A stretch of DNA of 64,000 nucleotides from Favolaschia claudopus (lineage: Eukaryota; Basidiomycota; Agaricomycetes; Agaricales; Mycenaceae), in contig JAWWNJ010000011.1 in NCBI GenBank assembly GCA_037176885.1, positions 124,001 to 188,000 of the forward strand. The letters are read 5' to 3'. Under the pieces are notes generated by a model. The model did no database searches and was not told the DNA's origin. It was given only the letters and a program-made list of their open reading frames with translations. The translations under genes and the position numbers were made by a program. Positions 34,931 to 56,019 of the stretch are shown piece by piece; position 1 is the first letter of the stretch; each line of letters begins with the position of its first letter.

Positions 34931-35835
34931 GTCCAGGACCGCTGCTGTCCAACTGCTGTCACAGTCTAAGCTAATATCTCTCTCTCTCGCGTTCCTGTAT
35001 CATGATACTCCCTTGTTCTCTACACTGTCGGAATCCTCTGAATACCTCCTGGGCATCCGCTGTCTTCTCAAAATGTGATCACGCTTGCCGCTTGCGCACA
35101 ACAGCATCGGAACGCAAGGCATTTTCACATTATGCCTTTCAATGTTCCTCTATACGCTTTATTCTCCTGGTACCTGCTCTGTCTGTATGGTGGTGCCTTC
35201 CCTGAATCCCCTCTGTAATCGCTCAATAACATCACCGTCACCAGCCTTGCTTCAACTTGTATCTTTTGGTCAAATAACTTTCGTTGAATTAACAAAGTGT
35301 CTTGGGCCCATGAATTACAACTCGCGCTGAAGGAGGAGCGGCGTCAAGCGGCAGAGGGCTGGAGTGCGACAGTCGGTTGACCAAAGGACTTAAGAGCGAA
35401 GCAATTGTCTGTAGGCGGCAGGAGATAGAGACTAAATTGGGGTGGAGGTAAGTCAAGTCTATGCTCACTGGTCTGGACGGAGCTGATTGCTCACTGATTG
35501 GCTGCCCAAGATAAAATTGTATTCATATTCCATCCCAACGCGTGCATTTCATATCAGGTCTGGAATTTATGATTTCTTCAAGTTTCTCAGTACCGCTTAC
35601 AGTAAAGGTACTTGCGACGGAGTATAGAGACAGGTATTATACCCTCACACCGTCTTCTGCACAACTTCGTACTATATGTCAACTATAAGTATGTGCATCA
35701 CAATTAAATTAAACCGATCGCATCCCGCGAGCAATCACAAAATATCCTCCTCATCATGGGTCTTATCCAATTTTTTCTTGACGAGGCACTCGTTTGCGTT
35801 CAAAATTCGAGAACAAGTAATCTGTAGAGAATTGA

Positions 35836-35871
35836 TCTGCCGGATCCGGCGGATCTGGCGGATCCGGCAGA
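35836..35871 (+). repeat. GGATCCGGCGGATC block, left arm
   Basis: Overlapping direct and palindromic repeats built from GGATC and CCGGCGG, preceded by AATCTGTAGAGAA. The inverted counterpart is at 55,390-55,430 (GGATCCGCCGGATCCGGCGG followed by TTCTCTACAGAT). The mirrored position supports one element with two arms. Confidence 0.75.
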
Positions 35872-36245: not shown

Positions 36246-36523
36246 GCTTCGTTCAGGAGACCTGCGTCAACACTTTGGACGGTGACCTCCAACCTATCGT
36301 GTCAACAACTCTCAACAATGATCAGCTACTGTGACTCTTGTTTTGAACCCCACCCTCGCTCGCGAAATGTAGTCTTCGAGCAAACTTCAAGCTCTCACTG
36401 TTGGGACACACCACAATCGGTTTGGCTTTCCTGTTCTTACCTGCCTTCCCAGTTGAAACATCAAATGCAGTACCTCTTCGCTGTCGTTTGTGCGTGACAC
36501 TGCGACACCTAGCAGCACCTACC

Positions 36524-36609
36524 AGCCCTATACGGCGATTTAATATATAAAGGACCTGTAATGAAAGGTGGACCTTTTATATATAAAGGCCTTTCGTTAA
36601 AGGTCGAAT
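36524..36609 (+). repeat. KDZ element, left terminal inverted repeat
   Basis: Starts AGCCCTATACGGCG and contains TATATAAAGGACCT, TATATAAAGGCCTTTCG and GTTAAAGGTC. In the outermost 30 bases 22 match the inverted right end, and the similarity continues with one gap through about 85 bases. The TATATAAAGG unit occurs twice in tandem. Confidence 0.8.
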
Positions 36610-37544
36610 TTATTTATATACTAGCGTAACGTACCTATCAATGGATGCCCGGGCGCACCATGTGGCGGCGTCGTCTGGCGGAATCGACCGCCCTGGCGCG
36701 TTTGCGGGATGGCGGGAGGCGCTCGGTGGCGGTGTGACGCATCACCACCCAAATTGGGTGCGATAATTCGCGCCCCACCGCCGCTGTACCGCCAATTCAG
36801 TGGAGAGGACGCAAGTAGATAGGCTTACCTTTATAATTCAATGTGTAGTATGGGCCAGAATGCCTTGAGCGGCTCGCACGACGACGGCCTCTTTGGGGGG
36901 AAATGGTGGGTGGCTTTTGTTTGTCGCTGTTTGAGCGCGATCCGATTGCCGGCACTTGCCGATTCCCAAATTTCCCTGCTCAAATTGTTAATATAGTGGT
37001 GTAGGTTTGCTTAGGATCTATGTAGTATGTGTTCATGGAGTAGGCTGGGACTGTTTTCAAATGGGCGCGCCGTATGAATTAGGATCATATTTGCCACTAT
37101 TTGTACGGCCATCATTTTGCGAGAATATTGGACGGGCCAGATTCGAATGCTCAGAGAAAGATACTAGCATTTATACTTGTACATATATAGTCCCTTGGCC
37201 AAATACGATATCAATTAGAACCGTTTTACACCCAAGAATGTGAACATCAGTTGTGCCTCAACATTCGGCGTTATTCGGTCATTCGGCTTTCAGACACCAG
37301 AGTCGAAAAGCTCGAAGTCCTAAGCGCCTAAGGCGCTTAACACATTGCTTGGGCGGAAAAATGTACAAGTCGCGTTTAAAAATCGCAGGTTGTTATCGGA
37401 GTTCACACAATTCACTCTTGGCAAGTAATCAATTATAGATATTAACAGTAGAACCATTCAGAGCTGTAGATTAAGACAATAAATAAAAGTTATCGATGCT
37501 TCAGTTGAATAAAGACATAATTCAGAGACACGAATCAAATCCTC

Positions 37545-40537
37545 TCAACACAGCGGCTGGTTGAGCAGCGATGCAAGAGCATAAAATGATTTGCAGGAAT
37601 TACCGAGTACGCCTACAGGCCAATGATCAGAGAAATAGAATATTTTACGAGAGGGCAGCAGGACATACTTTTTTTTTGACGGGCCAGGCCGCACATTTTC
37701 AGTGTCGGCTTTGCGCTTAGCTGCCGCTGCGAGCTTCTCCGCCGCTTTCTGCTCTTTCTTCTTCATCGCATCCTTCCGTATGTCTTCCATGGTACGCTTC
37801 TTCGGTGCGACGTAACCGGCCTTAACAGTGCGTTCGCTCGCACCGCGGAGACCGAGAATGCGGGGTTCAGGTGGTGGAGCGCGCGCGCCCAAGGCTGCGG
37901 GTTCAGCGGGAAGTGGGGCGGTGCCGGGTGGAGGAGGAGGAAAAAAGAAAACTCCGTGGTCACGGTCGCGAGCAGCTCGGTCGAGCTTTTTCTGAGCTGC
38001 GGCGGCAGCGGCGGCGGCTTCGCGATTCGGATTGCGTTGCGTCGAGACAGTGCCGAGCTGCCACCTGTTGCCGCCCTCCGCATCGTGACCCAGGAGGTAT
38101 CCGGTGTCCGCATCTCCGCCCCCAGCCCCACCAGCAACCCCTCCTCCACCTCTACCTCTGCCTCTGCCTCCTCTCCCTCTTGTTCCACGTCCTCTGGCAC
38201 CCCCGCCCCTTCCACCGCCTCGCCCTTGGCCCGCTGGAGTCGCTGCTTTGGGAGCTTTGGGAGCATTTGAAAGCGGACGGGACTCCGGAAAGTCATCCGC
38301 TGTCAGCGCTGACAGCACTCTTACCGGCGTCGTTATGGTAACGACGGGTGGAGCTGCGTGAGCTGCAGCGGTCGGGGGCGCGGGGTGTCTGTGGGGGGAG
38401 GGAAGGACGGGAGCGGTGGAGGCAGTGGTCGTTGTCGTTGTCGTGGAGGCAGGGGTCGTTGTCGTTGTCGTCGTGGCAGGGGCTATCCCCGTCATCGCTG
38501 GTAATGGGGGAGTCACTTCGGGAGCGGTAGTCGACGGTGCCGAGGGAGTTGGGGTTGACGGACTACGAGCCGTAAAAACATGTCGGAGCGGCGATGGATT
38601 TGCCGTAGTAGCGCGTTGGAATGCCGTCTGTGGACGCCCGTACGTTGATCCTGCTCGTGTAGGCGTGGACGGAACCGACACGGATCCAGCAGCAAGCAAC
38701 GCCGTCGCACTCGCGAACGGACGAGCCGGAGGCGGGGCGGACGCAGGTGCAGGACGTTGAGGATTACCGAAGGTCGGGGTTGATGGCATTGAAGTATGGG
38801 GCGGAAAAATCCAGTTCTGTGTCAATCCAGACGGCGCGGGAGCTGGGGGTGCTGCTGCCGGTTCTGAATTTGCGGGTGCTGGAGTTGTAGCTGGAGGTGT
38901 CGTCGAGAAAGAACGCATGATGTCGTCAACCCGATCGCCAGACGGTGTATCGCCTGTGATCATCGACAGCGGGTTAGGGCCGGGGGTACCTGCGATGTTT
39001 GGAGGGGCAGAGAAGGCATCGAAGTTGGATAGGGTCTCGTTCGAGAGGGGGAAGTAGTTGAGGTCCAGATCTAAAGGCGGGTAGTCTTGCTGACCAAAGT
39101 CTTCATCCTCACCCGGCAAGAACAGACTAGTGCGGGGAGGAGAGCCATTCGAAGGTGGTTCAGATGCTGTGGGCGGTGCCTCCAAAGCTGGAGAGATTGG
39201 TGGTGGAGTTGGGAGGCGAAAGTTGGGCCCATTTTCGGAGGAGGTCGATGTCGGTGTCTCAGAGGGAGGAATATCGGCAGGTCCACGGCTACCACCGGTT
39301 TCAGTTTGCTCTTCAGTGTTGGATTGTGTCGTGTTGTCGAGCTCAGAGCTCTCCTGAGTACGTATGGCGCGTTCTCGTCGAGTTTGGTGGTCTGAAATAT
39401 TGTTACTGTATTAGCATTGATAACGATGAATATAACTTCAATAACGTACCAAACACCTTCTTCCCAAACTGGTGAAGGGGCTTCACGACTTGGTCCTCCC
39501 ATCCCGAGTGTGCTTGGTCGAATGTATGGCCAGCAGCGGTGACGCCGTGGCAGTAGCTGGAAGAAATGAGATCAGCACACGGTCACGAGTAACGCGAGTG
39601 ACGCGTACGTCTGCGTCCCAATTCTCCCTCCCAAGTTCGGTATCGGCCCAACAAGCATTGTACCTCCAACCAACCCTGTTTTTTGCTCGACGTAGGCATG
39701 GACATGCTTGAGTAAAGGTCCGACCTCGTCAATCCCTCTGCAAAAATCATCTAAATATGAATTAAGGCTGATCGATAATCGCACTCACTGCTGGAAGGCC
39801 TCTGGTGTGCGCACTGACTCTGTCGAGATCGTCGAAGGCTTCTTCTGTGCTTGATACAACTGCTCAACAATTGCCATCTCCTCCGCTGTCGCCTCCAATT
39901 GTAACCGCTTAACGATTTGTTGCCGGAGAGTCTGCTGAGCTCTTCGACCCCTGGAAACCCGCTCCTTCCGCTCCTCAATAGTTTCTCCATCATCTCCGGT
40001 ACCCATGAGATTTTTGAAGCCCTCAGCCTCAAGAGCAGCGTTGATAATAGCTTTATTTCGCTTCTCCCAAATCTGTCGACGCTGCGAACGACGATGCTGA
40101 CGCGAACTACCCCCAAGCGCAGCAATAATCTCCCCTACCGCACCACTGCTGGATGACGCCGGGGTTGCTTCATTCAAGGCTTTCTTTTCTTTTTGAGAGC
40201 GATTATTATACCAATTACGAACGACCTGCGCGACAAGACGGTGAGTAAATGCTCAAAATTCAGTACAAAATCAATTTGCCTTGTTCTCAGTCACTATTGC
40301 CGCGCCAATGGCTAACGTCTCCTGTGGAGATCTCGCATCCTCCCCTATTGCTGCGCCGGTCGAATCCACCAGCGGAAATCCCAGCCGTCGTTCCACAGGC
40401 CAGTTCTGCAACCAGCCGCGAACAACTTTGATCCAAAAATTTCCCAGATGAGGCTGCAACTCGAGAAACTCGGGCCAGAAAGACTCCAAGTACGCTGCTT
40501 TGTCTGCAGGAAGCTGTGACTTTCTCCCCTTTGGCAT
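37545..40537 (-). CDS. KDZ-element cargo protein: helical N-domain, RGG-rich
   Basis: Function unknown. Chosen start MPKGRKSQLPADKAAYL at 40,537. About 90 N-terminal residues (SFWPEFLELQPHLGNFW) are followed, after a short intron, by VVRNWYNNRSQKEKKA, which resembles the recognition helix of a homeodomain (W-x-N-x-R). Next comes a helical region rich in Arg/Gln, then a conserved-looking segment (HVHAYVEQKTGLVGGTMLVGPIPNLGGRIGTQT, abbreviated here to its core GGTMLVGPIPNLGGRI), and a long disordered C-terminus: Pro/Thr-rich, runs of Thr, then RGG/GRG repeats (38,090-38,230) and a Lys/Ala-rich coiled stretch. RGG repeats suggest nucleic-acid binding. Similar proteins without known function accompany KDZ elements in mushrooms, to my knowledge. 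At least five introns are needed; the exact 3' end is uncertain because a final intron at about 37,618-37,667 is possible. Confidence 0.7.
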
Positions 40538-41039
40538 GGTCGACGAGAACGAAGTACAGGAAAATAATGGTGAGCAAGTGCAGCAAGGTATAATATTGTT
40601 GCGAGAGTTGACCACTACAGAGAGCGTCCGAGAGGTGAGTGGTCGAAACAGAGGACTTGTACGTGTTGTCGTTTAGGGATTGACTAATTTTTCTCAATCG
40701 GAAACAGGACCAATTTGCTATTGATTTCCTAACGAGGTAAACATTGGCCCTGTTCCTTCCATAGATCTCCGTGTCAGCTGTTCCTTCCACAGATCTGCGT
40801 GTCGGACCGATTGTCGTCAAGTACGGTACCTAAATGGGTTTCAAGGTGTGTCTCATCAGGTGAATTTACTTCTTTCTGATGTTCCTCATGTGCATCTCGC
40901 TAAATTCTAGTTGTCACATCGCCGATGAGAAGTTGGCCGGCCGCCTTAAGATTCTGACTCCGGCACAGTGTACTTTAAGATGCCCCAAGAAATTCAAATC
41001 GACATTCACACTCACATTCACCACCACCTCCCTCCGACC

Positions 41040-41716
41040 ATGACTGCTGCCCAACCCCCCTCCTCAGCCGTCCCCCAAACCGAGCTTCAAGAGCTTATTG
41101 CCCTCGTTTCTCGCCTTTCTGCTGCCTCCACAGAGGCCATGCGCCTCGCCGTTGAGGTCCAAGGTATGAGTATCTTTCATGTTATGAGACAATTTCTCTT
41201 ATTTTGCTCAAACAGCTCGATTGCCCGTTGTGGTCGCCGTAGAGGTCTCCGCTGCCAGTTCTGCAGCGACTACCGCTGCTCAGGCCGCCGCCGCTCAGGC
41301 CGCCGCCGCTCAGGCCACCGCCGCTCAGGCCGCCGCTGCTCCTCCTCCCCCGCCGAGTCCACCTCCCGCTCATGATTTCGATGAAGGGGGCCCTATATTC
41401 GTCCGCGGTGTTCCCCTCACTCCCGCCGAACTTGAAACAGCTCATCCGCCGGGTTCGGGTGAGACCTGGTATGTTGTTATTCGTGGACGAGAGCCCGGGA
41501 TGTATCATTCCGCGTGAGTTCTTTTGTCTAGTCTCTTTTTTCTTTCGTTTTACTAATTTCTATACTGCTAGTAAGCTTGCGGATGCACAATGCAACGGTG
41601 TTCCCTACCAGCTCAAGGCCAAGAAAACCTCTCGGATTCAAGCTCTCGACTATTATCGTGAGCATTACCAGGGCCCGGATAGCGAGAGTGGTGTTCAGAA
41701 ATGGATCGAGCCGTAG
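41040..41716 (+). CDS. Protein with RNase H1 N-terminal (viroplasmin-like) domain
   Basis: Three exons (41,040-41,163, 41,216-41,513, 41,572-41,716) give about 188 residues. The C-terminal 60 residues contain WYVVIRGREPGMYHS followed by CNGVPYQLKAKKTSRIQALDYYREHY, matching the hybrid-binding domain of RNase H1 (YVV-G-x-PG-Y-S ... V-G-x-x-x-x-x-K), which binds RNA/DNA hybrids and is reused in other proteins. No catalytic RNase H domain follows. Upstream is a short helical segment and an Ala/Gln tract encoded by a 15-base unit CAGGCCGCCGCCGCT repeated four times (41,281-41,340), then poly-Pro. An in-frame ATG at 40,980 would add 20 residues rich in His; the ATG at 41,040 is preferred by context. 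Cargo of the KDZ element. Confidence 0.72.
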
Positions 41717-42021
41717 TTTTCTCGTTATATGTTGTAAATCTGTTGCAATTGGATTTTTCTCGGCGCCGTTTGTGTTTTCTGTACCGCTTGAAAAGTTTTG
41801 CAAAACTAGTAGAGAATTACACGGAAACTACAAATACATTGATTCTAACAATTCTCGTGCCGTCGTCGCTCCATGTAAGCCTCGAAATGAACAAAAAAAC
41901 TAGGTAATTTGGGTTGTGGATCTGGAATTGGATCATCTTCCACCGGTGGGGTCCAGTACCGCCGCCGCGCTCGGCTACAGTATCCGTGAGTGCGTGCGTG
42001 AGGAGGATTAAATTGTCACAC

Positions 42022-42852
42022 TTACAAAGATGATGAGGCTGGAATAGGAACATCCGAAGCCTGTTCTTCTTGCGACACCTGTTCCTGTCGGGTAATTGGG
42101 CTAAGTTCCCAATCAATTTCCGGAGCGCTTCCGATGCCATGTGGATCGCCAGCCACTTCTGATATTGTGCTGTGCAGGGTATCAAACAACTAGCTCGTTG
42201 ATGATGATCCACTTACCGCATACCCATCCCTTCCTCAAACTCGTCTGAGTCTTCATCTTCATCCTCGACGCCGAAGGCAGACCTGCACATATCGCGATCA
42301 CTGGAAAATCTTCAAGACATGAAAGTACCCTCGCTAGTTACCAAGATACGGTCAAGGCTCACCTGTCTGCGTGTCCTGGACGGGCTGGGGAACGTGATCG
42401 CGACGCCAAGACCTCGGTTGATTCTTTCTCGGCGTCGGCCAAACCACGGCTGTTGCTCTCCTTGTTTCGTAATGCGTTTTTTTTCGGTCTAGACTTGTCT
42501 GACTTGCGACGATTCGCCTTGATTTGCGCCCTTCGCTACCGTGTCAATTCGAATGCCCCTCAAATGCTTGCTTTGCTATGCGCCTCCCGCCGTTTCTCTG
42601 CCATCTGAATTCGTCTCTTTGCCCGAATTATGTCTGCGCTGATTGGGACTGTCATGAGTAATCAAAAATTGGTAACATCAACACCTACTTCTGTCGATAA
42701 TAAGTTGCAGAGGCAATTCGCTTTGCCTCTGCTGCCGCGCTGCAGGTAAGAAAAGGGAGTCAGGTAATGCAATGGAAGTAACAATATGAATATCCGTCCA
42801 ACCTCGGGTCCTTATTTTTGTTATTTATTCTTCCCTTCTTCGGTTGCGTCAT
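42022..42852 (-). pseudogene. Decayed basic/acidic cargo protein gene
   Basis: From a Met at 42,852 (MTQPKKGR) through at least three introns the frame gives a Lys/Arg-rich middle (IIRAKRRIQMAEKRREAHSK ... RRAQIKANRRKSDK) and, after an intron, an acidic segment (EDEDEDSDEFEEG) ending ASSSL at 42,022. Splice joins at the 3' half are clean. Two in-frame stops, TGA and TAG, lie close together in the basic region (around 42,545-42,575); both are one C-to-T change away from Arg (CGA) and Gln (CAG). The basic region resembles the small Arg-rich proteins often carried by basidiomycete mobile DNA; no specific function is known. Confidence 0.5.
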
Positions 42853-45046
42853 GTTGTTGTTGCGGTGTGAAGGAAAGAGCGGTGGTGGCTATGCAGCACC
42901 TAAAGTCGACGAGCAAAGTAGACATGGAAGGCGATCAGACAAAGTGGTGAATATTTCGACTTGTCCACTTACCCTATTCTCGTAGCACCGAGCCCCACCG
43001 TTTGAATCCTCCCCGTTTGAATTGATTCTTACCAAACTGCCGCATTTCCTTCCAGGAACATGAAGATTGTGAGCAATACCTTGTTTTGGAGCACCACTTG
43101 AGTTTTGCAGAGAGTTATAGACTTACTTCCGAGGGTCCCAACTCAAATTGATCCACAAATTGAGTCAAACTTGATCTGATACTGGTCATTGAAGATCGGA
43201 ACCTTGAACTTGAATTTCGGTGCTCCGACAGGTTTCTACATGTTAGATGTTTGGTAGGAGTCAACAGAGTCCCAGATCGTTGCGAAAAACGACCGGTTTA
43301 TGCCTGGATATCGCGGCTTCGATCAGGTCAGAGTAAACCTACAGGAACTGACCTTTTTGCATTTGTACGCTGTTCTAATGTAGGTTTCACGAAGATTATC
43401 ATCAAAGTCCAGTCCAAGAGTTCCTCCAGGTGGGTGAACACACAATGATACTTGATTTCTTGAGCGGGCTGATCGTGGTCGAAGTCCAAGTGAAGTTGCG
43501 CTTCAGTCACACGCGTGACAGGACGTGCCAATTTCCTTATATGGACTAATCACTGTCGAAACGCGACTCAAGTATGGCCATTACTCGTTGTTCTGGGGCT
43601 CTCGGGTTATCCGGCCCATAATCTAGATACCATTTACTTCTGAAAGCTCAAGATCTGCGTTAATATGACATCTGTATGGTCCCAACAACCGTTGACAATT
43701 TCGCATTCAAACCATACCAGTCCGAAGCGAAAACGACCTCCGGGATGCATAATAAAGCTCCTACAAGTTCAAATTTATGCCAAACGCGTAGGTGCGCAAT
43801 TTCAACAGGATCAAATTCAATCTCATTAAGTTATGAATTGGACAATTTGAGTCGCTGAGGCATCGGCAACGGTCTCTCGGGTCGCATGTGCTATATATCG
43901 CAATTTCGACCACGGAGAACAATTTCTAAGGTACATCGGTATATTGTGCAGTATAATCTAAGGAATCTGACCATTTCTCACAAATTGACTCGGAGCAGTC
44001 AAAGACAAGATTTTTCAACTTACAACCGAGGATGTCCAACACACAAAACCTTCCGTGCTTTGAAGTTTGAGTCAAGAAATAAGAGAAACGAGTTAAGTTG
44101 CACCTAAATAACTTCTCCTTACCCATCCTCACACTTCTCTGAGCCCGTTGAGGGGTGTACGACCCTCAAAACTTGTTCTGCTTCGATTGTGCAGAGTAGC
44201 TTTGCTTGCTGGGTGCAAGAGGGTCAGTTTTGCGATCTGTTGCTTTGTATTTCAATTATTTGACTCTGGATTAGGTAGAAGATCAAACTGGACCCAAAGA
44301 ATGCTCAGCCCCTGTCCAGTTTCAGTCGTCCAGACGGTTCTTACACTCGCAAAATTTTTGTTCCTTCCACGCACGGCTCACAAGATGTGCTTGACTTATA
44401 AACCTGTAACCTTGGATTCTTGCAGGGACCTACCATAGAGATATAACTGTCATGTACAGAGCAGACGAATGTATACCGTTGCAGCACATTCTAACAAAAT
44501 CCTTGTTCCTGTCTCGCTTCGGCCCTTTCGGACTAATTCGGATAAACGAATCCTCACTCGCCGGCAATCTCCCATACCCCGTTCCGGAAGGTGGACCACC
44601 GGGCCGTGCACTGGATTTGCCGATATGCCGCTTTGGGCACAGTGATGCGTGAGCAATTTGGTTGATTAGTCATCTTTCGTCCCTTGTCGTTTACCATCAC
44701 CTATACGTCTTCTCAAATCTAGCTGGGGCTTCGTCAACCACGGCGCGAACCTTTCAGAGCTTTGAAATATATGACTTCTATGCTTCTTTCTGCCTTGAAT
44801 GCCTGAACTCGACAGCAACTTCTGCTTTTCACTCTTGAGATCAAAAACTACATTTTGTGCCAGTGTTCTCTCTCAGTTTGTTTTAGCCTTGCTCTCGGCC
44901 TTGGATCATGTCTGCCGACAATCTTAACACTTACGACTCCCTGTACTCAAATCCGGGTGATCCTAGCTTGCCCCCATTTGGACCGCTCGCTAAATGTGAT
45001 GGGTTTGATGATTTCGCCTCTAGCCTCTTCTTCCTTTCTTTCTTCC
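42853..45046. other. Non-coding stretch inside the KDZ element
   Basis: 2.2 kb between the decayed basic-protein gene and the next cargo gene. It holds only short frames with no recognisable motif. A frame starting at 44,908 (MSADNLNTYDS) might be an alternative first exon of the downstream gene but I could not join it convincingly. Confidence 0.45.
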
Positions 45047-46455
45047 ATGGCGTACAACATGAACGACCCTGCTCAACGTGCGATTGTCCACGACCGATTT
45101 ATGGCTGGAATATGCCCCACCCTGGGTCCTCAACGAAAAACTCGCGCACGCCGCCATGCTAAGGCCGGTAAGTCGACATTATTTGAAGTACTCTTCAGAT
45201 TTACGCTGATAAACGTTAGCAAAACTCACTAAGGATCGTCTGGCGCGAGAGGCGGCAGAACCAAACCAAACAGAAGAGGACAAAGCTCAAGAGAGACGAA
45301 TGGAGTTCTTCGGTACGTTGTTTTGATTCGCTCACCGTTCTCCTTTCCTGACATTGCTGTATATTAGAGCGCCAAAAACAAATACGTGGCCGTCCTCGAC
45401 CCCCCCCACGCCCCAAACCCACTCTGGTCGACATTGCTCGCGAGAATCTTCAGCGTAGCCTCGGTAGACCCCCTCAATCGTATCTTCATCCCATCCCACG
45501 CTCGAAACCCGCACGCGTCAGCTTTGCCCTCGACGACCATCCCCAAGGGCGACCTCAAGCACGACCCTCTCAAGTGCAAGTGCTGTCAACCGGTAATATT
45601 GCACTTCCCGATGGACCCGGCCTCGCGTTCCGGGATCGACTTGCCGCGTATTTTGGGAAGGAATTTGCTGAGGAGTGTGAGAGACAGAAAAAGGAGTTAA
45701 AGAAGGTCGTATATGCACAGCAAGAGCGCGCACAGCTGGAGGGTGTGATGCGTATGGTTGCAGCGGAGATTTTGGAAGTAGGATCTGAGAAGCGTCGCCT
45801 CGAAAAGGCGGAGAGGGGCCCAGCACCGGACGGCCTTTGGTTTGTGCAGGAGGGGTGCGTTCCATTATATTTTCATTCTGTGGTGTTTACTAATTTTATT
45901 CTTCTCTCTCTCTAATCGTACAGAGACGTGGTTTTTCTCGCTAGAGTCGACGGCGAAGGCCCGCACATGCTTGTGGGGTATGCTGACGAGATCAGAATTG
46001 TATGTAAATGATTTGAGTCGACAATAACCATTGATTTTACCGGTTTCTACTGCCATTGGCCGATAAGAAGCGGGATGAGGATAAAAGGCGCACATTGTAA
46101 GTGGTATGTAAATCTATTCCTATCTATTCTCTCTGTGGATCATGGGGAATTGTGTTGCTGCCAAGCCCGTGGAACGGTCGGTGATTTTCTTCCGAAGTGT
46201 CTGAACCCGCTAACAAGCCGTTTTCCCTATAGCTTCCGCATGACACTTGTCGATGTCAATGCTCACCAGATCGAAGCCGCATGGGCATCATCAAACAACC
46301 CCAGTTGCAGGGAGATGGGGCCGGGGAAGCGGCGGGAAGTTGTCGACGTTTTCGGTGATGGAGGCTACGCAAGGTTCGAGAACAGAGCAGCACGTCGCCG
46401 CCGCATCCTAGAGGAGAGGAAAGCCAGGAGCAAAAAGTCGAAGAGTCCGTTCTAA
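45047..46455 (+). CDS. KDZ-element cargo protein, unknown function, coiled-coil
   Basis: A six-exon model starting MAYNMNDPAQRAIVHDRF and ending RKARSKKSKSPF, about 320 residues. It is basic and Pro-rich at the N-terminus (KTRARRHAK, RGRPRPPPRPKP), has a central helical, probably coiled-coil segment (FAEECERQKKELKKVVYAQQ, then EILEVGSEKRRLEKAE), a compact segment (DVVFLARVDGEGPHMLVGYADE) and an Arg/Lys-rich tail (RAARRRRILEERKA). Phases agree at all joins except the short exon near 46,069, which is my weakest call. No family with a known role is recognised. Because it is collinear with the other plus-strand cargo genes, a role in the element's life cycle is possible but unproven. Confidence 0.6.
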
Positions 46456-46656
46456 AAAATTAGCCGTGTATGGATTCTTACTGCAAAGGAACAGGAAGTG
46501 CTTCCGAGATGATTGTCTGTCCACGCGCTGAAAAGATGGAAGCTCTTCATATCGTAACCATCCAGTCGGGGATACAGGAACAAAATAGGAACAAAACAGG
46601 AACACTGAAAAATTTAAAAGGCTACAGATTTGCGTCGGGGAAGTGGGTCAACTGAA

Positions 46657-47125
46657 ATGGCGAGCCACTGGTACTCCGACCGACCGGATTTCCCTACCAT
46701 TACTGATTCGGTGTAAGTTTTCTCGTTCTTGGTTTTGAATCTTCTCATGACAGGAACACAGAATTATCGGGACTATGTTGAGAGAGGTCAAGCAAGAGAC
46801 AGCTGCTATCGATGCGCACATACGTGTGCTCAAGCGGATGATTCGTTACCATCATCGCAGGTAAAATCTCAGTTCATACCTCCGGATATTGGTGACGAAT
46901 TAATCCAGACGCCTCGTGTCAAGCTCTGGTATCAGGAATGCCAACACACGGAAGAATATTCGAAAATGGCTCCAGATGATCCGCGCGTTCCAAGACCGAA
47001 AGGAGCGAAGTGATTTGTGTGTGTCATATGATATATGCTGCCGATGGGCGGAGAATGCCATCGCCCGAGGCGAGGGGGGCTTTGAGCTTCTGGAGGCGGT
47101 GGATGTGGCATTCCATTTGGTTTGA
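46657..47125 (+). CDS. Small cargo protein with a SYDI-C-W motif
   Basis: Three short exons give about 125 residues: MASHWYSDRPDFPTITDS, then a helical exon (IIGTMLREVKQETAAIDAHI), then an exon ending AVDVAFHLV. The last exon contains VSYDICCRWAENA, which closely resembles ISYDIVCQWHKNI from the KDZ transposase in the same element, the segment that carries one of the proposed catalytic aspartates. The rest does not look like a transposase. It could be a captured transposase fragment, a dimerising regulator, or a chance match. Confidence 0.45.
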
Positions 47126-47200
47126 TGACATGTATGATTTGCCTTACCACAAATTTATACATCCCGACCGACCCACTTTTTTCTACTTCCTTGACGCACC

Positions 47201-48355
47201 ATGCAGCCCCAGATCCCCGACTCTTGTCTCTGTGAAATTCTTCGCCTTTTGAATCCTAACATCCAATCAACAACAATTGTTGTCTCACGACGCTTTGCTC
47301 ACCTTGCTCGGGCTGAGTTATATCGAACTGTGGAAGTCGCAGGCGATAGAACTCAAATGTTTTTCTCCGCGCTGAAATCGAGGCGGGAACTGGGAGCTTT
47401 GGTTGGTTCTCTTTTCTTATATGGAAGATTTCATTCTGACCCACCTTGGAATTCAGGTAACGAAGCTCGTTCTCGTGGGGATTGAATACGAAGGCGACAG
47501 GGATGGCTTGCGGGAAGCATTTTGTTCGTTGGTGAACCTACGCTCCCTCCACATCCAATACAGCCGGTTGGATTTCGCTCACCTGTTGAAGAACATCCCT
47601 GGGCGACTTCAGGATTTATTATACTGGCCTGCAATTTGCGACGGCGCAATCGATTTCTTGATCTCGCAGCCGCACATTACATCGGCGTTCTTCGGGGACC
47701 TCAACTTGGCTGCCAACATTCCCTCGCTTCTCCCCCACCTCACTGACATTGCTGCGCCGCCTGAAGATCTCAATATCATCGTTCCCTCCCGTCCTGTCAA
47801 GGACATAGAGTTTCATTACTCGGAGGGGGACCAAATCCGACGGCCGATCATTTCTTTGAAGTTTTTGTCACTGTCGAGCGCTCCGATTCTATCTTTGGAG
47901 TTGCAAATTTCTCAACTTGTCGCAGCAGCGGAGGAAGTACCGGCACTGCATACCCTCCTACCCGATATTCGACGATTGGTTATTTACCAGGACCAATCCT
48001 GGGGTTCTGCTTTTGTAGCCGCTGTGAGTTCTTGACTTTCTATATTAATTTTGTTGAGGCTCCCTGGTTTATTCAATTACAGGATAATTTCAATGAGTCT
48101 ATCGATACTATGGTGGCCATCGTTGACCAGCTGTCTACGATGCGCCACCTTGTCATCGCATGTACCTATGGCATCACACAGGCGCGTTTGATCCGCCGCA
48201 AATTTGTACGCGGCTCGCGCCTCGACCTTGATCTCCAGGTCATAGGTACAAGAAAGTCCCTCCTTTACTGGACTGATATGGTATATAGATCTGAGTATAT
48301 CTCTGTACCGCTTGAGCCCGCTGCCGCCCGCTATGTAAATAATATGCGATACTAA
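47201..48355 (+). CDS. F-box/LRR-like protein carried by the KDZ element
   Basis: Three exons (47,201-47,401, 47,457-48,023, 48,083-48,355) give about 346 residues. The N-terminus (IPDSCLCEILRLLNPNI ... VSRRFAHLARAELYRTVEV) is an F-box-like segment as in many agaric proteins, where the domain recruits Skp1. The remainder has irregular leucine-rich stretches (LGALVTKLVLVGIE, LVNLRSLHIQYSRLDF, LKFLSLSSAPILSLEL, MRHLVIACTYG) of the kind predicted to form a substrate-binding solenoid. It is not closely related to the host F-box copies A-C in this window. Frame and splice phases are consistent, so it appears intact. Confidence 0.7.
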
Positions 48356-49041
48356 AATTTTAATCTTGTTATTTCCTGTGGTCAATTTTCGTATTAGTTT
48401 TAGTTCAGAGGGTGATTATCATTCCTCAGAATCTCTCTACATAGGCCAAGGGCATAAACAAATCTTGAAATGACTTGTATTCGGCCTCTTCGAGGCGGCT
48501 CGCTGAACCTGTGGGATTTGCCGGCACAAATGATCTGTGGTTCACGCCGCGGCGTAACCTCTTGTCCCACGCTTCAAAGAATTCGTAACTTTTGGGGGGG
48601 CAGAATTTTTCCTAAAACTCTTAGAGATAAATTCATTTAGACATACAACAAACAACTTTGTTATCATTTGCAGAGCAAGGAATACACATGTGAACTCACC
48701 GGTCATCGAACTGCAATGCGAGGGTGACTTCCACAAAGGGAAATTTGATCGTCACAAACTGTGACACGACCAACTCTCCTCTTCTCTCTGACTCTGAGTC
48801 TCCTCGATGCAAGTCGTCAAGGAACTGTTTCGACGCCTCCCCAATTCAATGCGCCGCCTTGCAGCTCATTGATCTCGCTTGCTTTCCTCACTCTTCTGGC
48901 TCCCGCACCACCAATGTCGCCTGGTTGGACTTGATCTGGCAACAACTTCCGTCGCATGATACACCATGCGACGGAAGATCTATCCGCAATCTCTTGGCTT
49001 AAATCAGTCGTCTCTGAATCTCTGTCTCTCTTCCTGCGCTC
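48356..49041. other. Intergenic inside KDZ element
   Basis: About 0.7 kb with one unsupported 92-codon frame (48,724-49,002). No domain seen. Confidence 0.45.
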
Positions 49042-49568
49042 ATGCCCCCCCACCGCCGTGAGTTCACTTTCTTGTTCTTGTTTCTTTTCATTCATTTTAC
49101 TAATGCTCTCAATTTAGGACCTCTTCGTAAATTTCAGGTCAATGCTGCGTCGCCGCTCGTCGAGGAGCGGCGTAGCTACCACCGCCTCGGTCGTCGGGCT
49201 CCTGGCCCTCCGAGATTCCGTCGGGGACTTCCAGCCGGTGTTTCACAAGGTACGTCTCATCGCTAATGTATCATTTTATACAATCTTAAAGGTCCACAGC
49301 CGACGCGGCTAATGATGCAGCCGCATGGGGTGCTCTGTCCCCTGGGCCCGCGTGGGGGTCGAGTGCGAGTTCTGGCTGGGGTGGGGGATCGTGGGGAGGA
49401 TGGGGTGCCACGAGCAACACTTCGTGGGGCGGAGGATGGGGTGCGGGATCGGGATCGGGATCGGACGACGCGCCATCTGGATGGGGTGCGGGATCTGGGT
49501 GGGGTTCGGACTCTGGGTGGGGCCCACCAGCTTGGGGTGATGATGATGATTCGGGTGGGGCGTGGTGA
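49042..49568 (+). CDS. Trp-Gly-rich small cargo protein
   Basis: Three exons join to about 136 residues: MPPHRRPLRKFQ start, a basic middle (EERRSYHRLGRRAPGPPRFRR), then, after the acceptor CCACAG, a tail of about 90 residues with 12 tryptophans, eleven of them in WG pairs (SGWGGGSWGGWG, SGWGAGSGWGSDSGWG) in a Gly/Ser/Asp background, ending GDDDDSGGAW. Only this frame gives an open reading frame through the repeat, and the phase fits. Repeated GW/WG pairs in disordered sequence are the signature of Argonaute-binding hooks; that function is an inference. The gene ends 121 bp before the transposase start, in the same direction. Confidence 0.6.
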
Positions 49569-49689
49569 TTCCTCGGTTCGTATAATCGGTGTCCCTCATC
49601 ACTTTGTATGGACGTAAGTCCGGTTTCGATGCAAATAATCCACATTCCCTTTCCCTCCACACTCGCTCGTGTTCCCTCTGTCTTGAGAA

Positions 49690-52600
49690 ATGAAGCGCAA
49701 GATAACAGGCAGCTTGCGGACTACCGTTGCCTCTGATAGCGAGAGCGAAGACGAAGACCGGGCATTCATTGCCCGCAGCCGGGAGGAAGGGCTATTCCAT
49801 CGTGCTATCCGCACTGATGGGCGGGGTCGCACAGTGGTATCCACGTCCCGGGTCACCGTTCCGGCTTCGCCTACCAAGAGACAACCCCCCGAACGCGACC
49901 TCCTAATGCCCGACGACTTCCAATTTGAAACTCCCATTGAGGCAGACTCTTTGGACGCTATACCACAAGCTGCCTTCCCATTTGCTGGCGAGGATTCATT
50001 CGCATTTGATGAGGGTCATCCCATCGAGGCGCCCCGAAGGAACGAGCGGGATTCGGTGAGTTTCCTTTCACTTTTGGGACTTGATTTAGTTTTAATATAC
50101 TCCAGGATAATCCCATGGCACAATGGCTCAAGCGCCGTGCACGCTTCCTCGACGAACTCATACGCCTCGAAGGTCGTGGCCCGTTTCGCCACCAAACCAA
50201 ATGTGTTAGTTGTGATAGTCCCGCGGCCGAGGCACCATTTCGTTGCAAGGACTGCTTCACCGACGCATTGTCCTGCCGACTGTGCATTGTCTCAACGCAC
50301 AAGGAGAATCCGTTTCATCGGGTCGAGGTAATTCAGTTCTCTTCTAATTGTTGACGTGTCTTTCTTACTTGTTGTTACAGATGTGGAATGATCATGGCTT
50401 TTTTGAATCAGTTACGCTCAAGTCGTTGGGTTTGAGAATCCAGCTTGGGCATGGACGGAATGGGGTATGTCCAGGCACTGTGGCGAAGAGGGCAAGGGAC
50501 GAGGAGATGGCGGCAGCGGCGGCGGAATCTCGGGACGAAGATGCAGTTCCCGCAAAAACTCTGAAACCTCATCGCGACGATTTCTGTGTCGTGGACTCTA
50601 ATGGGATTCACGAAGTCGGACTAGATTTCTGTTGCTGCTCATTAGCCGAAGACCACGACATCCAGCTTCTCCGCTCACGACTCTATCCCGCAACAACAAC
50701 GAACCCTGCCACCGCTGCGACCTTCAGGGTTTTGCGGGATTATCACCTCGTGACGCTCGAGGCGAAATGTTCGGCGCTTCATTTCTACAACAAACTTGCA
50801 CGTCAGACGAATAACAGCGGTGTCTTTCAGCCTCGGGTGAGTTAGACAATGGTATCTTTCGATTTGAAACTCACAACTTCAGTGTAGAGTCGTTATCATG
50901 AGTTTCGACGGATGACACGACAGTGGCGCAATGTGCAAATGCTCAAGCGCGCCGGCCGTGGTCACGCTGTCGATGGGATTGCCGGTACACGGGCTGGAGA
51001 GTGCGCGTTGCTGTGTCCGGCTTGCCCGCAGCCGGGCAAAAATTTGCCTCTAGACGGATCTTGGCGTAATGTCCCGCGGGAGAAACGCTTCATCTACGCG
51101 TTATTTCTGGCGCTCGACGCAAACTTCCAGATGCGGCGAAATGACGTTTCAAGTGAGGCAAAGGATCCGTCTTTAGGTGATGGTATTGCGTTCTTTGGGC
51201 GAGTAGAGGAGTATATGCGACATCTTGAGGCGCATTGGGAACTTGAGCAGGAGGTAGTGTTCATCTCTATCGATTTTCATTCGTCTGCTGAGACCGTTTT
51301 CATCTAGAAAAGCACCTGTGTTGCGCATGATGCGGTGAACGAGCCTAACAGGGAATCATATGGGATGGCGGCATCTGGGATAGGGACTGTGGATTGCGCG
51401 CGACACAATATGAAGAGACCGAATGGAGTGGGAGACCTGCAGAAGGGGGAAAAGTACGCACTATGGTTTCTAACAGGACTTGCGCTCAGATTATCTAACG
51501 AATCACAGGTATATCAATATGGATTTCATGTTATGGGAAAGTCTTGCGAATTACGACGATATTGTGCAACTTTTCATTTCCTACGACATCGTGTGCCAGT
51601 GGCACAAGAATATCTGGACTCGCCTCTCTCAGTACAACCCTCAGCTTCGCCAGCGCGGCTTGAAACGCTACTACGTTTGGCTTATCCCCAAATTCCACCT
51701 TCCCGCCCATATCGAGGACTGCAACATCCTCTATTCCTTCAATCTCACCCCGTTCGTCGGTCGGACCGATGGAGAAGCGCCCGAGCGAGGGTGGGCCAAC
51801 ATCAACAGTATCGCACCCAGCACCAAGGAAATGGGACCAGGGGCTCGGCGTGACGCCCTCGACGATCAATTCAATGACTCCAACCACAAGAAAATCATCG
51901 GGATGGGGAAATCGCTCCTCGAGAAGATACAGAAGGCCGTCCCCAACATGACGCAGCATCGTCTGGAGTTGGCGGAGGCAGAGCGGGGGCTTCCGTCGGA
52001 TGAGGTGGAGAAGTGGCGGGCGGAAATGGAGGCTTGGGAGCTGGATGCCGCAAATCCAAACCCATTCAAGCTGACGGAGAAGTACGAGGGGATGCAGGCG
52101 ATTCGGGGACGGCTGGCGGTGGCGGCAGCGGAGGATCAGGACGAGGACGATGTTCGTGGAGATCTTCATGCGCATGAGATGGTTGTGATGGGGATGAATC
52201 TCGAGGAGCAGCAGCGGCAGCTGGCATTCGATGCGGGGCTTCTCAAGACGCACACCACCGACGGCCAGAAGACGGGGCTTCTGGAAAGGTCCAATAAACT
52301 GGGGAGGAAGATAACACAATTCCTGAAAATTCGTGAATCCTTCACTCCCGTCGTAGCACCAATCCGAGCAGCCGACGATGTTTCCCGCACCAAGACTGAC
52401 AAGCCCGAGCCCACCCCCGCGTTGCCTGTCCCCAACATCAAGCTCTGGCTTCCATCTGCGCTTGCCGCCCTCCCGTCAGTTACGGTGAAATTGACCCATG
52501 CGCGCTGCGAGTTTGAGCTGCGCGTCGGCCAAGCGCACGCTGCATTGGCAGAACTACGGCGGCTTCTCCTCGTCCGCACCGCGAAATATCAATTCAAGGA

Positions 52601-53361
52601 TCTGCATCGGCGTGGGGTGGCAGCTAACACTCGTGCGAAGACGACGATCGAGAGTCTCGACGAGCAAATCCGCCGGACATCTGCGCAGTACCGAGTCGCT
52701 TACCAGGCGGTGGCAGTCCTTGCTCCGCTTCTCAAGGAGACAGCATGGACTCGGACGCTTCGTGTTCTCGCCCCCGACGACGTTCGCCCCCCGACCCCGC
52801 GCTACGTTTAGCGATCCGCAACACAAGTCCAAGAAACGCAGGACGAGGGGGGTTGAGGATCCAGGCGTGAGACGAGAGCAGGACGCAGAAACACGTCCAG
52901 CTTCCTGGATATGGCTTTCGCAGCTGTCGGAGGACGAGGAGTCGCAGGGTGGGATGACGGAGGCGCTGCGGATCGAGTGGGCGAAGACTCGAGCAAGGGC
53001 ATGGAGGTGGACGGAGGAGGTGGATTTGCTCGAGGAGGAAATGCGACGGGTGCTCGAGTTCCTCAAGTGGAAGGCAGAATGGTGGATGGGACTCATTGGG
53101 CAGCGTGAAGAGGACGAGGGATTCATTGCCTATGCGCGCCGCCAATCACGCATCCAGACCGATTTGCGAGCGCGCTTTGAAGGAAATTGGAGAGATGTTC
53201 CTCGGTTCATCGAGATGGGGCGGGCAGGTGTCACAGAGATCTCGGAAGACGAGGGGGAGGGCAGTGAAGACTCTGACGATGAAGACGAAGACACCCCTGT
53301 ACCGGTGGTCCCAAGATATGGTCATCTCGTTGCGTCGCTTGTGGACGAGTCGCTAGCTTAA
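49690..53361 (+). CDS. KDZ (Kyakuja-Dileera-Zisupton) transposase with CxC2 cluster
   Basis: DDE-type transposase that would cut and move the enclosing element. Six exons encode about 1,130 residues. After an acidic N-terminus comes the CxC2 Zn-binding cluster (CVSCDSPAAEAPFRCKDC, then CRLCIVSTH), then NGIHEVGLDFCCC and the catalytic region: GTVDCARHNMKRPNGVGDLQ, ISYDIVCQWHKNIW, PKFHLPAHIEDC and DGEAPERGWANIN. The Asp of VDC, Asp of SYDI and Glu of GEAPE are the likely acidic triad by family knowledge. The C-terminal part (ASWIWLS, ALRIEWAKTRARAWRW) is typical of these proteins. An extra C in the run at about 52,785-52,791 shifts the frame, so translation as given stops at 52,811; the family's C-terminus continues in the next frame to 53,361. 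This is either inactivation or an assembly error. Confidence 0.92.
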
Positions 53362-53658
53362 TTCACCATATCATTGCATTTTAATGGAATACCTACACTA
53401 CCTACTAATACCTACCAATATACCTACACTACCTACCAATATACTGTGCCTTTTCCCTTTTTTCTGGCATTTTTTCGTGGTTTTTAGTGCTATTTCGAGC
53501 TCGCCGTCGGAGACGACGACAAAGTGCTGTGCTCAGTGGCTTCCCAATTTGGATATAACGTAACTCTTGCTCTTCACCGTCTACCACGTCGTACTCAAGC
53601 ACTTGCTCGCCGTGCATCACACAAAACAGGTCAGATCAGCAGTATTATTTCGTACATC

Positions 53659-53744
53659 AGGAGGACCTCTAACTAAAGGCGTTTATACATAAAACTTAGA
53701 CCTTTCGTTAAAGGCCTTTATATATAAACCCGCCATACTGTGGT
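53659..53744 (-). repeat. KDZ element, right terminal inverted repeat
   Basis: Inverted counterpart of 36,524-36,609. Read inward from the right end it starts ACCACAGTATGGCG and contains TATATAAAGGCCTTTAACG and AAAGGTC, followed by a diverged second unit (ATGTATAAACGCCTTTAG). Confidence 0.8.
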
Positions 53745-55009
53745 GCACCTACCCAGTGCATGTACAGGATAAGGATAGACGGAGAGAATCATAGGCAGCG
53801 GGTCAGTCAAGGTGCGCACGCTTTACATCTCATTTGTTTCCCGAACTAAATCCTTGACCGCTCAAAGCTCGTATGAAGTGCGGGCCTGCCTGTCAGCGAA
53901 TCGGTGGTCTCGGAGGTAAATTCTCTGCATACCAAGCTTCCGAGGAACCGGAGCTCATTTCTTTGGCTGCGGTGCATGCTTCGTTTTGCGACACCTGTGT
54001 TTTGGCCATAAGTATGTATCATTCATTTCACCTTTCAATTTTTCTTGAGCTCATTCTGGCGCCACCTATTGTCAAAACATTTTCGGCAGCTCAAGAGCAT
54101 GTTGTTCTGTCTGGTCGACACGTCAACGACGTGTCGCATCTCAGTGGCTTGAAGCTGCCCTCGCCTGGCCTCAGGCTGTTATCATGCCACTTTTATGGCG
54201 AAGCAGTGTGGGCCGCACTGGTTAGTTGTGGTTGCTCGGACTCCGGAGCCTCGTCGTAAGTCGAGTTTGTTTCATGTTTTCGTTTTAAAAGAGTTGTCAA
54301 CCTCATTCATCCTTGAATTACTTTCGATTAGACTTCGCCAACGTAGGACAACAACACGGTGCGGAAGAGATACGATGGGAATTCTCTCGGTAGAGCAAAC
54401 AGCTTCAATTCGTTTCCGCAGTGAGTACCCAATATTGATTGATTGATTGAGGGCTGCTTTCAAAGGAAGCCAGCACGTAGTAGATCCCAATATATAGGCG
54501 GGGTTCAGATGCATATTGCTGTATAGGTTCAGTCCCTAATGACCAAGTTGCCAAGCACGGCGAGAATGTTATCGAGTTCCATTAAACAGAGCCGCGACAT
54601 GGCTATTAATAAAAGTCAGTGATGAGCGCTGAGCATGACAGTCGTGCTAAGACTTGAAAGATTCCGACTCAGCGCAAGGCGTTTAGGCTTCGTGATTCTA
54701 GCACAACTGTGACAATGAGAATCTGGGTTCAATTCACTGGTAGGCAATGAAAATAGCCGCTGATACAGCCGATACAGTATCGCACAGGCTACATATCGAC
54801 TCGAAAGCTACTGCAAATTTGAATAAAATATCGGCATGACGAGGTTGAGGTGGAGGCCACAGAAAGACTGACCGTCGAGAGTTATGTAGTGGTTTCATAA
54901 TGAATATTCGTGCAGTAGGGACAAATTTCAAAGTTGAATGTCATGACTCACGACTACTAAGATTGGTTGTAAAAGACATGTAAGTAACGAAGGGTCGGCA
55001 AGAAGAGAG

Positions 55010-55389: not shown

Positions 55390-55430
55390 TCTGGCGGATC
55401 CGCCGGATCCGGCGGACGGGTTCTCTACAG
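55390..55430 (-). repeat. GGATCCGGCGGATC block, right arm
   Basis: GGATCCGCCGGATCCGGCGG followed by TTCTCTACAGAT, the inverted match of 35,820-35,871. Confidence 0.75.
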
Positions 55431-56019
55431 ATCGGATTTTCATCAAAATTCAGCCTCATCAATTGGCTTTTGCGATATCCGGCATTTGCCGCACCTTCGT
55501 TGATCGGCGTTCAGAAAATCCTCCCTATGTGACGGTCGTGACGGACCGTGACATTATGTCTCCAAGGTCTCTCCCCACGTCTGCCACCACGTCGCACGAC
55601 GTCGAGACACTGAAAGTCTGAACACCACCTTCAACTTGAAGCCGGTGGTTCAGCATTCAGCCTTCATCTGCGTCACTACGGGTGCTGCCTAGCGCTGCGC
55701 TTGCGCTTCGCGCTGCTCCATTTACTCTATGCTTTGGCCCTCGACTTTTTCGCTCCCTGCCCAGTGCCATCGACTGACGTCTCACATCTATTTCAATGGC
55801 ATTTCACCGCACTCCGGCGTTTGGATGTGTCATGTCCGAGGTCGCGGCGAAGGTGTGAAGCGAGTGAACGAGTTGCGATCTTGGGAGCGGGTCTCATTCT
55901 CCGAGCCGCTGGCCCGCCAGAGACCGAGCAATACTTATATTGCTTGTGCACATGCTCAGCCTGTATAAGGATGGACGATATTGGATGACTACTGTAGAGT
56001 ACGATGTATTTGATTTACT

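Follow-up and report, generated by a model that had tools for sequence, protein, structure and literature searches.

A multi-gene, Kyakuja-like KDZ transposon with an F-box gene in Favolaschia claudopus

The window analysed here, a stretch of 64,000 nucleotides from Favolaschia claudopus (assembly GCA_037176885.1, contig JAWWNJ010000011.1, positions 124,001 to 188,000), contains an element with inverted ends, a target-site duplication and seven genes, one of which encodes a KDZ transposase (copy A; Table 1). Copy A is very probably a large, recently active KDZ transposon, most like Kyakuja, in which the six other genes are permanent members kept by selection. Its anatomy is that of an ordinary transposon and its stable gene set is unusual; we describe it as a Kyakuja-like KDZ element with several genes, an F-box gene among them. 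Mushroom genomes are rich in KDZ elements, and the literature, in the portions available to us, mainly describes their transposase and sometimes a TET/JBP gene. Here, a complete and recently mobile KDZ element can be described with exact borders and a set of seven genes that stay together. As far as the accessible parts of the open-licence literature show, the gene module and the constraint on it, the F-box member, a KDZ-like tail in one of the proteins and a conserved internal block are new.

Borders, near-identical copies and empty sites

The assembly comprises 264.6 Mb in 460 contigs, which are denoted by C-numbers. Two further copies are nearly identical to copy A, namely copy B (C11:190160-207378) and copy C (C68:517567-534776). 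Across ~17.2 kb, A and B differ by 15 substitutions, A and C by 18, and B and C by 23. Copy B has 37 indel events besides, nearly all of a single base, which resemble assembly noise. The similarity among the three copies ends exactly at the CA..TG termini, beyond which the flanks and the 7-bp duplications differ (A, CACCTAC; B, GAAATAT; C, AATTTTA). Copy A begins with CAGCCCTATACGGCG and ends with CGCCATACTGTGGTG, and copies B and C have the same termini, CAGCCC...GGTG.

We compared these copies with three other long elements, on C22, C1 and C26, and three short ones, on C5, C121 and C19. The long insertions are flanked by CCGGTAC (C22), TTCTTCC (C1) and TCCGCCA (C26), and the short ones by GGATGCC, GTCCGGC and TCCAGGT. 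The target duplication is 7 bp and the termini are 5'-CA..TG-3' in all nine insertions read (six long, three short). The initial annotation had placed the element at 36515..53753 with a 9-bp target duplication. It recognised the element itself, with coordinates off by up to 8 bp at each end. The 9-bp direct repeat GCACCTACC can be read at both 36515-36523 and 53745-53753, and its reading as a 9-bp target duplication is ruled out by the 7-bp duplications at the other copies; the outer G and C belong to the repeat because the last and first bases of the element match the flank by chance.

The imperfect inverted ends of about 85 bp noted initially are confirmed. The first and last 86 bases of copy A are identical at 64 of 87 columns, with an alignment score of 101, where 1000 shuffles of one arm reached 51.5 at most, and the ends of five other elements are identical at 61-68 of 87-93 columns. 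Each end contains 16-bp palindromes, located near 32-47 and 67-82 from the terminus. A strict form of the palindrome pattern occurs twice in A, three times each in C22 and C1, and once in the left part of C26. The three short elements have four, three and four, with two of the inner palindromes of the left ends displaced.

Related sites without the element were sought with seven joined flank pairs (40 of 152 candidates scored). For copy C, a junction-spanning match is found at C63:658906 (92%), and weaker ones at C63:645794 (78%) and C68:548089 (79%). The C22 insertion has such matches on C12 (92%) and C4 (91%). Two of the short copies have them as well, that of C19 on C41 (74%) and that of C5 on C110 (84%, the match extending just 26 bases to the left of the junction). 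Among the scored candidates there is no junction-spanning match for the insertions on C1, C121 and C26. When aligned, the empty sites at C63:658906, C12 and C4 each have a single copy of the 7-mer with one base altered; the C63 site additionally lacks 10 bases farther left. The element is a real, recently mobile transposon, and we infer its movement from the copies, the duplications and the empty sites.

The arrangement of A and B, which lie in the same orientation on C11 with 12.4 kb between them (C11:160523-207378), and the repetition of this stretch on C304 might suggest that an ordinary gene cluster was duplicated, either segmentally or in the assembly, and that the ends are repeats by coincidence. 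However, C304 is an allelic contig. It matches the intervening 12.4 kb with 99.7% identity and holds the facing ends of both copies with the same flanks, so that both copies seem to be present on both haplotypes. Moreover, a duplicated cluster does not account for similarity that stops exactly at the borders, for the different 7-bp duplications or for the empty sites, and on these grounds the explanation is rejected as next to impossible.

Seven genes and their co-occurrence

Gene models were made with a splice-aware predictor and protein-level conservation against C22 and C1. They give seven genes, of which g1 and g3 are on the minus strand and g2, g5, g6, g7 and g8 on the plus strand. A candidate g4 at 43.2-44.1 kb is merely a spurious 35-aa model. 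Annotated F. claudopus proteins broadly match the models of g1, g5 and g6 (locus numbers 3176599, 3176602 and 3176603 on C11, in gene order); exon ends differ, and the annotated g5 homologues add an exon absent from our model.

Table 1. Features of copy A (window positions)
Feature	Position	Strand	Basis or remark
Complete Kyakuja-like KDZ element, copy A	36523..53745	+	17,223 bp; borders from alignment to copies B and C
Left target-site duplication, CACCTAC	36516..36522	.	7 bp, set by comparison with eight other insertions
Left inverted end	36523..36608	+	16-bp palindromes at 36554-36569 (degenerate) and 36589-36604
g1, homeodomain-like N-terminus and Pro-rich/RGG region, ~880-900 aa	37535..40537	-	Gene model; homologue P0020, 883 aa
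g2, RNase-H1-N-like, ~210 aa	40980..41716	+	Gene model; Cauli_VI match below cut-off
g3, basic protein, ~200 aa, uncertain model	41845..42852	-	Gene model and conservation
Internal conserved block, GTCAC...GTGAC palindrome, then CTAATNNGGANTAATCACC-like stretch	43506..43565	.	~60 bp; in 7 of 7 elements
g5, ~330-340 aa, KDZ-core-like motif in last exon (46233-46455)	45047..46455	+	Gene model, annotated homologues
Exon containing another KDZ-like stretch, VSYDICCRW; belongs to g6 or stands alone	46936..47119	+	Profile score 32.0
g6, F-box protein, ~346 aa	47207..48355	+	F-box E 0.0049 in A, under cut-off
g7, WG-rich low-complexity protein, 160 aa	48956..49568	+	Gene model
g8, KDZ transposase with CxC2 cluster, ~1120 aa	49690..53361	+	Pfam matches PF18758 and PF18803
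Right inverted end	53660..53745	-	16-bp palindromes at 53665-53680 (degenerate) and 53700-53715
Right target-site duplication, CACCTAC	53746..53752	.	7 bp, matches left duplication

The KDZ transposase with a CxC2 cluster that the initial annotation saw near the right end is borne out by g8, which matches PF18758 (KDZ; E 2.8e-54) and PF18803 (CxC2; E 1.5e-34), both above cut-off. The four other genes it listed (RGG, RNase-H1-N-like, F-box and WG-rich) are all present, and two are to be added, the basic protein g3 and g5 with its KDZ-like motif. The domain matches of the listed genes are of unequal strength. The homeodomain matches of g1 are weak, and the structure models of g1 and g5 (mean predicted local distance difference test scores 45.5 and 49.5) give only a weak homeodomain hint for g1. 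The RNase-H1-N assignment of g2 lies below the Pfam cut-off: the Cauli_VI scores of A and C22 are 16.5 and 20.2 bits against a cut-off of 21, and in C1 there is no match at E <= 0.1. A MelC1 match of g2 was put aside as low-complexity. The F-box of g6 scores 17.2 bits in A against a cut-off of 20.5 and is found at E <= 0.1 in six of nine homologues, with a best E of 2.1e-5 and one homologue above cut-off (P0011, 20.8 bits). Gene g6 thus probably encodes an F-box protein, with domain support partly from its homologues. No Pfam match was found for g7.

The last exon of g5 contains a stretch, E..W....REMGPG.RR, that matches positions 611-643 in the transposase of the element itself (profile score 54.7 versus at most 20.2 in 40 column shuffles; BLASTP E 5e-6). 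The separate exon downstream of g5 matches transposase residues 535-562, its score exceeding the maximum of 20.4 in 40 column shuffles. The two stretches are in reverse order relative to the transposase. Six of nine aligned annotated g5 homologues end before the KDZ-like tail, which may thus not always be translated as part of g5.

Other cargo was sought as well. Tet_JBP has no match in the element gene models at E <= 1, and none of its 38 matches in the genome (22 above cut-off) is inside a mapped element of the family. A tRNA scan of the window found none, and Rfam gave no match up to E 1 in 35500-56000.

To follow the genes through the genome, we distinguish strong protein matches (E <= 1e-12) from weaker ones (1e-12 < E <= 1e-5); 126 of 141 candidates were scored for g1, 141 of 141 for g2 and 71 of 71 for g6. 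Strong matches occur at 16 loci for g1, at the same 16 loci for g2 and at 19 loci for g6. Every one of them adjoins an end of the element family or a KDZ match, in agreement with the initial proposal of a transposon-borne gene module. A left-end match is present at 14 of the 16 g1/g2 loci, and the remaining two (C119 and C29) have a right-end or KDZ match within ~13 kb. The g6 loci comprise 14 of the 16 g1/g2 loci, the allelic A copy on C304, and C206, C40, C253 and C139. At the allelic B copy no g6 match was found, the sequence beyond the match not having been searched. In A, C1, C5, C49, two loci on C149 and two on C22, g1 is found ~+2.9 to +4.4 kb, and g6 ~+10.7 to +12.5 kb, from the left end. 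The end-to-end spans of C26 (27.7 kb) and C167 (53.6 kb) are longer, presumably owing to nested insertions. With all 19 strong matches of the F-box gene beside one KDZ family, the element bears directly on whether transposons may capture F-box domains, whatever the source of this F-box gene. That possibility was raised in a 2025 paper, the available part of which reports no evidence for it (PMC12062965).

Weaker matches are found at five loci for g1 (C33, C69, C14, C96 and C76), nine for g2 and two for g6. The weak g2 loci on C101, C10 and C15 lie 10.0-10.4 kb upstream of a KDZ match on the same strand, and that on C76 ~13 kb upstream; for those on C48, C194, C60, C67 and C388 there is no KDZ match upstream among the matches listed. 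On C48 and C60 a weak g6 match lies ~8 kb from the weak g2 match. The locus on C101 shows, in the order of copy A, g1-like, g2-like and weakly g3-like pieces, the g5 tail with its KDZ-like motif, an F-box-like piece and then KDZ, the last being 43-61% identical to A by segment (53% over the longest). Within the ranges tried on C101, no borders in the form of a CA..TG pair flanked by matching 7-mers were found.

Beyond the element itself, g1 homologues were matched 17 times, in F. claudopus (eight) and in Mycena (nine; M. albidolilacea, M. olivaceomarginata and M. leptocephala; 41-48% identity, 480-1128 aa). Limited-reach searches for relatives of g5 and g6, which required shared 5-residue words and scored ~8000 candidates each, gave 0 of 10 and 0 of 9 matches outside F. 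claudopus. KDZ matches number at least 202 in the whole genome, with 150 scored out of 699 candidates; open frames of 400-850 codons are present in several of them.

Conservation and selection on the accessory genes

The check proposed by the initial annotation was to look for full-length copies that share the gene order and differ in their target duplications, and such copies are found within the same genome. Nucleotide matches between A and C22, taken without filtering, are collinear through the element, with 67-81% identity by segment. Those between A and C1 are collinear in shorter pieces, the F-box region being seen only in translation. Translated matches, of which an offset filter retained the collinear ones only, cover all seven genes. 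Residue identity is 0.53-0.84 for A-C22 and 0.40-0.74 for A-C1, with g8 the highest.

The ratio of nonsynonymous to synonymous substitution rates (dN/dS) is low. For A-C22, where columns were restricted to windows with 35% identity or more, it is 0.185 for g1, 0.180 for g2, 0.137 for g5, 0.199 for g6, 0.161 for g7 and 0.071 for g8, and saturated for g3. For A-C26 (dS 0.24-0.50), without a column filter, it is 0.325 for g1, 0.249 for g2, 0.352 for g3, 0.141 for g5 (103 codons, with 192 gapped or not covered) and 0.097 for g8 (778 codons, with 345 gapped or not covered). The low values of g6 and g7 come from filtered columns, as the C26 comparison covers neither gene. For A-C1, the value for g3 covers 35 codons only. 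The genes described initially as host-like cargo therefore look, from their kept order and low dN/dS, like conserved genes of the element and working parts of it, not chance passengers.

Several observations weigh against this interpretation. The A-C22 values are obtained at dS of about 1 or more (0.93-2.12) with a column filter that lowers dN, and several A-C1 pairs are saturated. Under the gene models of A, C26 has in-frame stops in g1 (two), g2 (one) and g3 (one); the covered parts of g5 and g8 have none. The F-box-like piece of C101 is in the opposite orientation. The transposase of A itself is one base out of frame: the C-run at ~52785-52790 has six C, compared with five in C304, B and C, and the extra C is either a fresh frameshift or an assembly error. 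Across the shifted region, 628 codons can be read in B and C304 versus 445 in A; copy C also lacks the extra C, and its locus ended before its frame did. An intron in the A model of g8 (52806-52857) is an artefact of the shift, the C22 and C1 models having no intron there. Finally, C205 carries g1 and g2 with no g6 match, and at C139, C253 and C40 g6 lies within ~3 kb of the left end with no strong g1 or g2 match. Unless those three copies are dead, g1-g5 may therefore be dispensable.

The loci with incomplete gene sets, and the short elements with none of the genes, would be expected if host genes had been trapped between KDZ ends and only g8 and the ends mattered for movement. Such an origin would also suit the F-box and RNase-H1-N domains, which ordinary host genes can have as well. 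We nevertheless consider passengers improbable: gene order is kept at 67-81% identity and largely even in C101, the unfiltered dN/dS against C26 is 0.14-0.35 for g1, g2, g3 and the covered part of g5, and no match of g1, g2 or g6 at E <= 1e-12 lacks an element end or a KDZ match nearby.

The three loci at which the F-box gene adjoins the left end resemble a subfamily in position (C139:60490-75895, C253 at ~101.2-103.5 kb and C40 at ~1014-1017 kb). On C139, 13 kb separate the F-box gene from the right end.

Classification, internal block and possible mechanism

Statements on published elements in this section follow the available portions of the cited papers. The KDZ core and the associated CxC cysteine cluster of g8 place the element in the KDZ superfamily. 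Kyakuja is described with 7-bp duplications, CA..TG termini and no inverted repeats, and Zisupton with 8-bp duplications (PMC12730594). Copy A shares with Kyakuja-1_LB and Kyakuja-2_LB of Laccaria bicolor the 7-bp duplication, the CA..TG termini, a KDZ-type transposase, the occurrence in Agaricomycetes and the presence of an accessory gene beside the transposase (PMC12730594). It differs in having six other accessory genes, with no match to the TET/JBP gene that marks TET-bearing Kyakuja, and in its ~86-bp imperfect inverted repeats with paired palindromes, which the two Laccaria families reportedly lack. The inverted repeats count against a plain Kyakuja assignment, although their absence is perhaps not a defining character, and they are the reason for the name Kyakuja-like. 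They could also mean that the element belongs to another KDZ branch, such as Zisupton, Dileera or an unnamed one. This is unlikely, though it deserves some weight, given that the 7-bp duplications and CA..TG termini are as in Kyakuja and the duplication of Zisupton is 8 bp.

Other KDZ elements offer partial parallels. KDZ1, KDZ2 and KDZ3 of Cryptococcus neoformans are mobile KDZ elements of ~9-11 kb; like copy A they are long and have inverted repeats and a CxC-KDZ transposase, but the cluster is CxC1 in place of CxC2, the inverted repeats are 139-241 bp and the duplications are 8 bp (KDZ1) or 4-8 bp (PMC12810828). Inverted-repeat motifs of Marasmius oreades KDZ elements are given in a supplement (PMC8290104). 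An F-box is tied to KDZ transposons in fish as well, where F-box and KDZ-type domains co-occur, F-box/CxC7 proteins are found, and platyfish Zisupton is cited as having an F-box in one isoform (PMC12062965). In those cases one protein contains both the F-box and KDZ or CxC7 sequence, whereas in copy A the F-box has a gene of its own within the element.

The internal block is present in all seven elements examined, the gene-less ones included. It lies at 6.8-7.06 kb in four long elements and is inverted in all three short ones. Searching the genome for CCTAATNNGGANTAATCACC with at most one mismatch gives 16 matches, compared with one for the reversed control. Eight of the 16 are within mapped elements; those of A and C26 are missed, as two positions differ. 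In the short elements (C5, 5,000 bp; C121, 4,259 bp; C19, 6,804 bp), the termini are of the same kind and the duplications are again 7 bp. Apart from the ends and the block, they share only short, scattered translated matches with A, C22 and C1, and no gene. They resemble non-autonomous derivatives, which from their sequence features may move in trans. Together with the symmetric end palindromes and the internal block, they make the cis and trans requirements of KDZ elements testable.

A mechanism can be proposed from these features. The transposase g8 would most likely use the paired 16-bp palindromes to recognise the inverted ends of ~86 bp, cut at the CA/TG termini in a cut-and-paste reaction, and insert with a stagger of 7 bp into unrelated sites. 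The protein of g1, as a homeodomain-like DNA-binding protein, may act on the TAAT/palindrome block inside the element as an element-specific activator or assembly factor. The F-box protein g6 may direct the host SKP1-cullin-F-box (SCF) ubiquitin ligase at either a silencing factor or the transposase, and g5 may modulate the transposase through its KDZ-core-like tail. The RNase-H1-N-like, basic and WG-rich proteins would be helpers. Gene-less short derivatives would be moved in trans through their ends, with the internal block retained. The element would then be a multi-component KDZ machine, in which the F-box protein redirects SCF, the homeodomain-like protein reads the internal site, the copied-core protein regulates, and gene-less forms need the site and the ends. 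We put this scheme forward tentatively, as one possibility that is more doubtful than the identification of the transposon and its gene set.

The eight CCTAATNNGGANTAATCACC matches outside mapped elements are on C8, C81, C147, C170, C183, C205 (C205:296808), C206 (C206:37512) and C349. Five have the same letters, and they are perhaps further non-autonomous elements.

Outside copy A, an outer pair of inverted repeats (35820-35862 and 55390-55432; 43 nt, 81%) surrounds the element. A search for a 5-10 bp target duplication at this pair found none. CGTGAACGA repeats flank it on both sides, as if the element had landed in an older inverted-repeat element.

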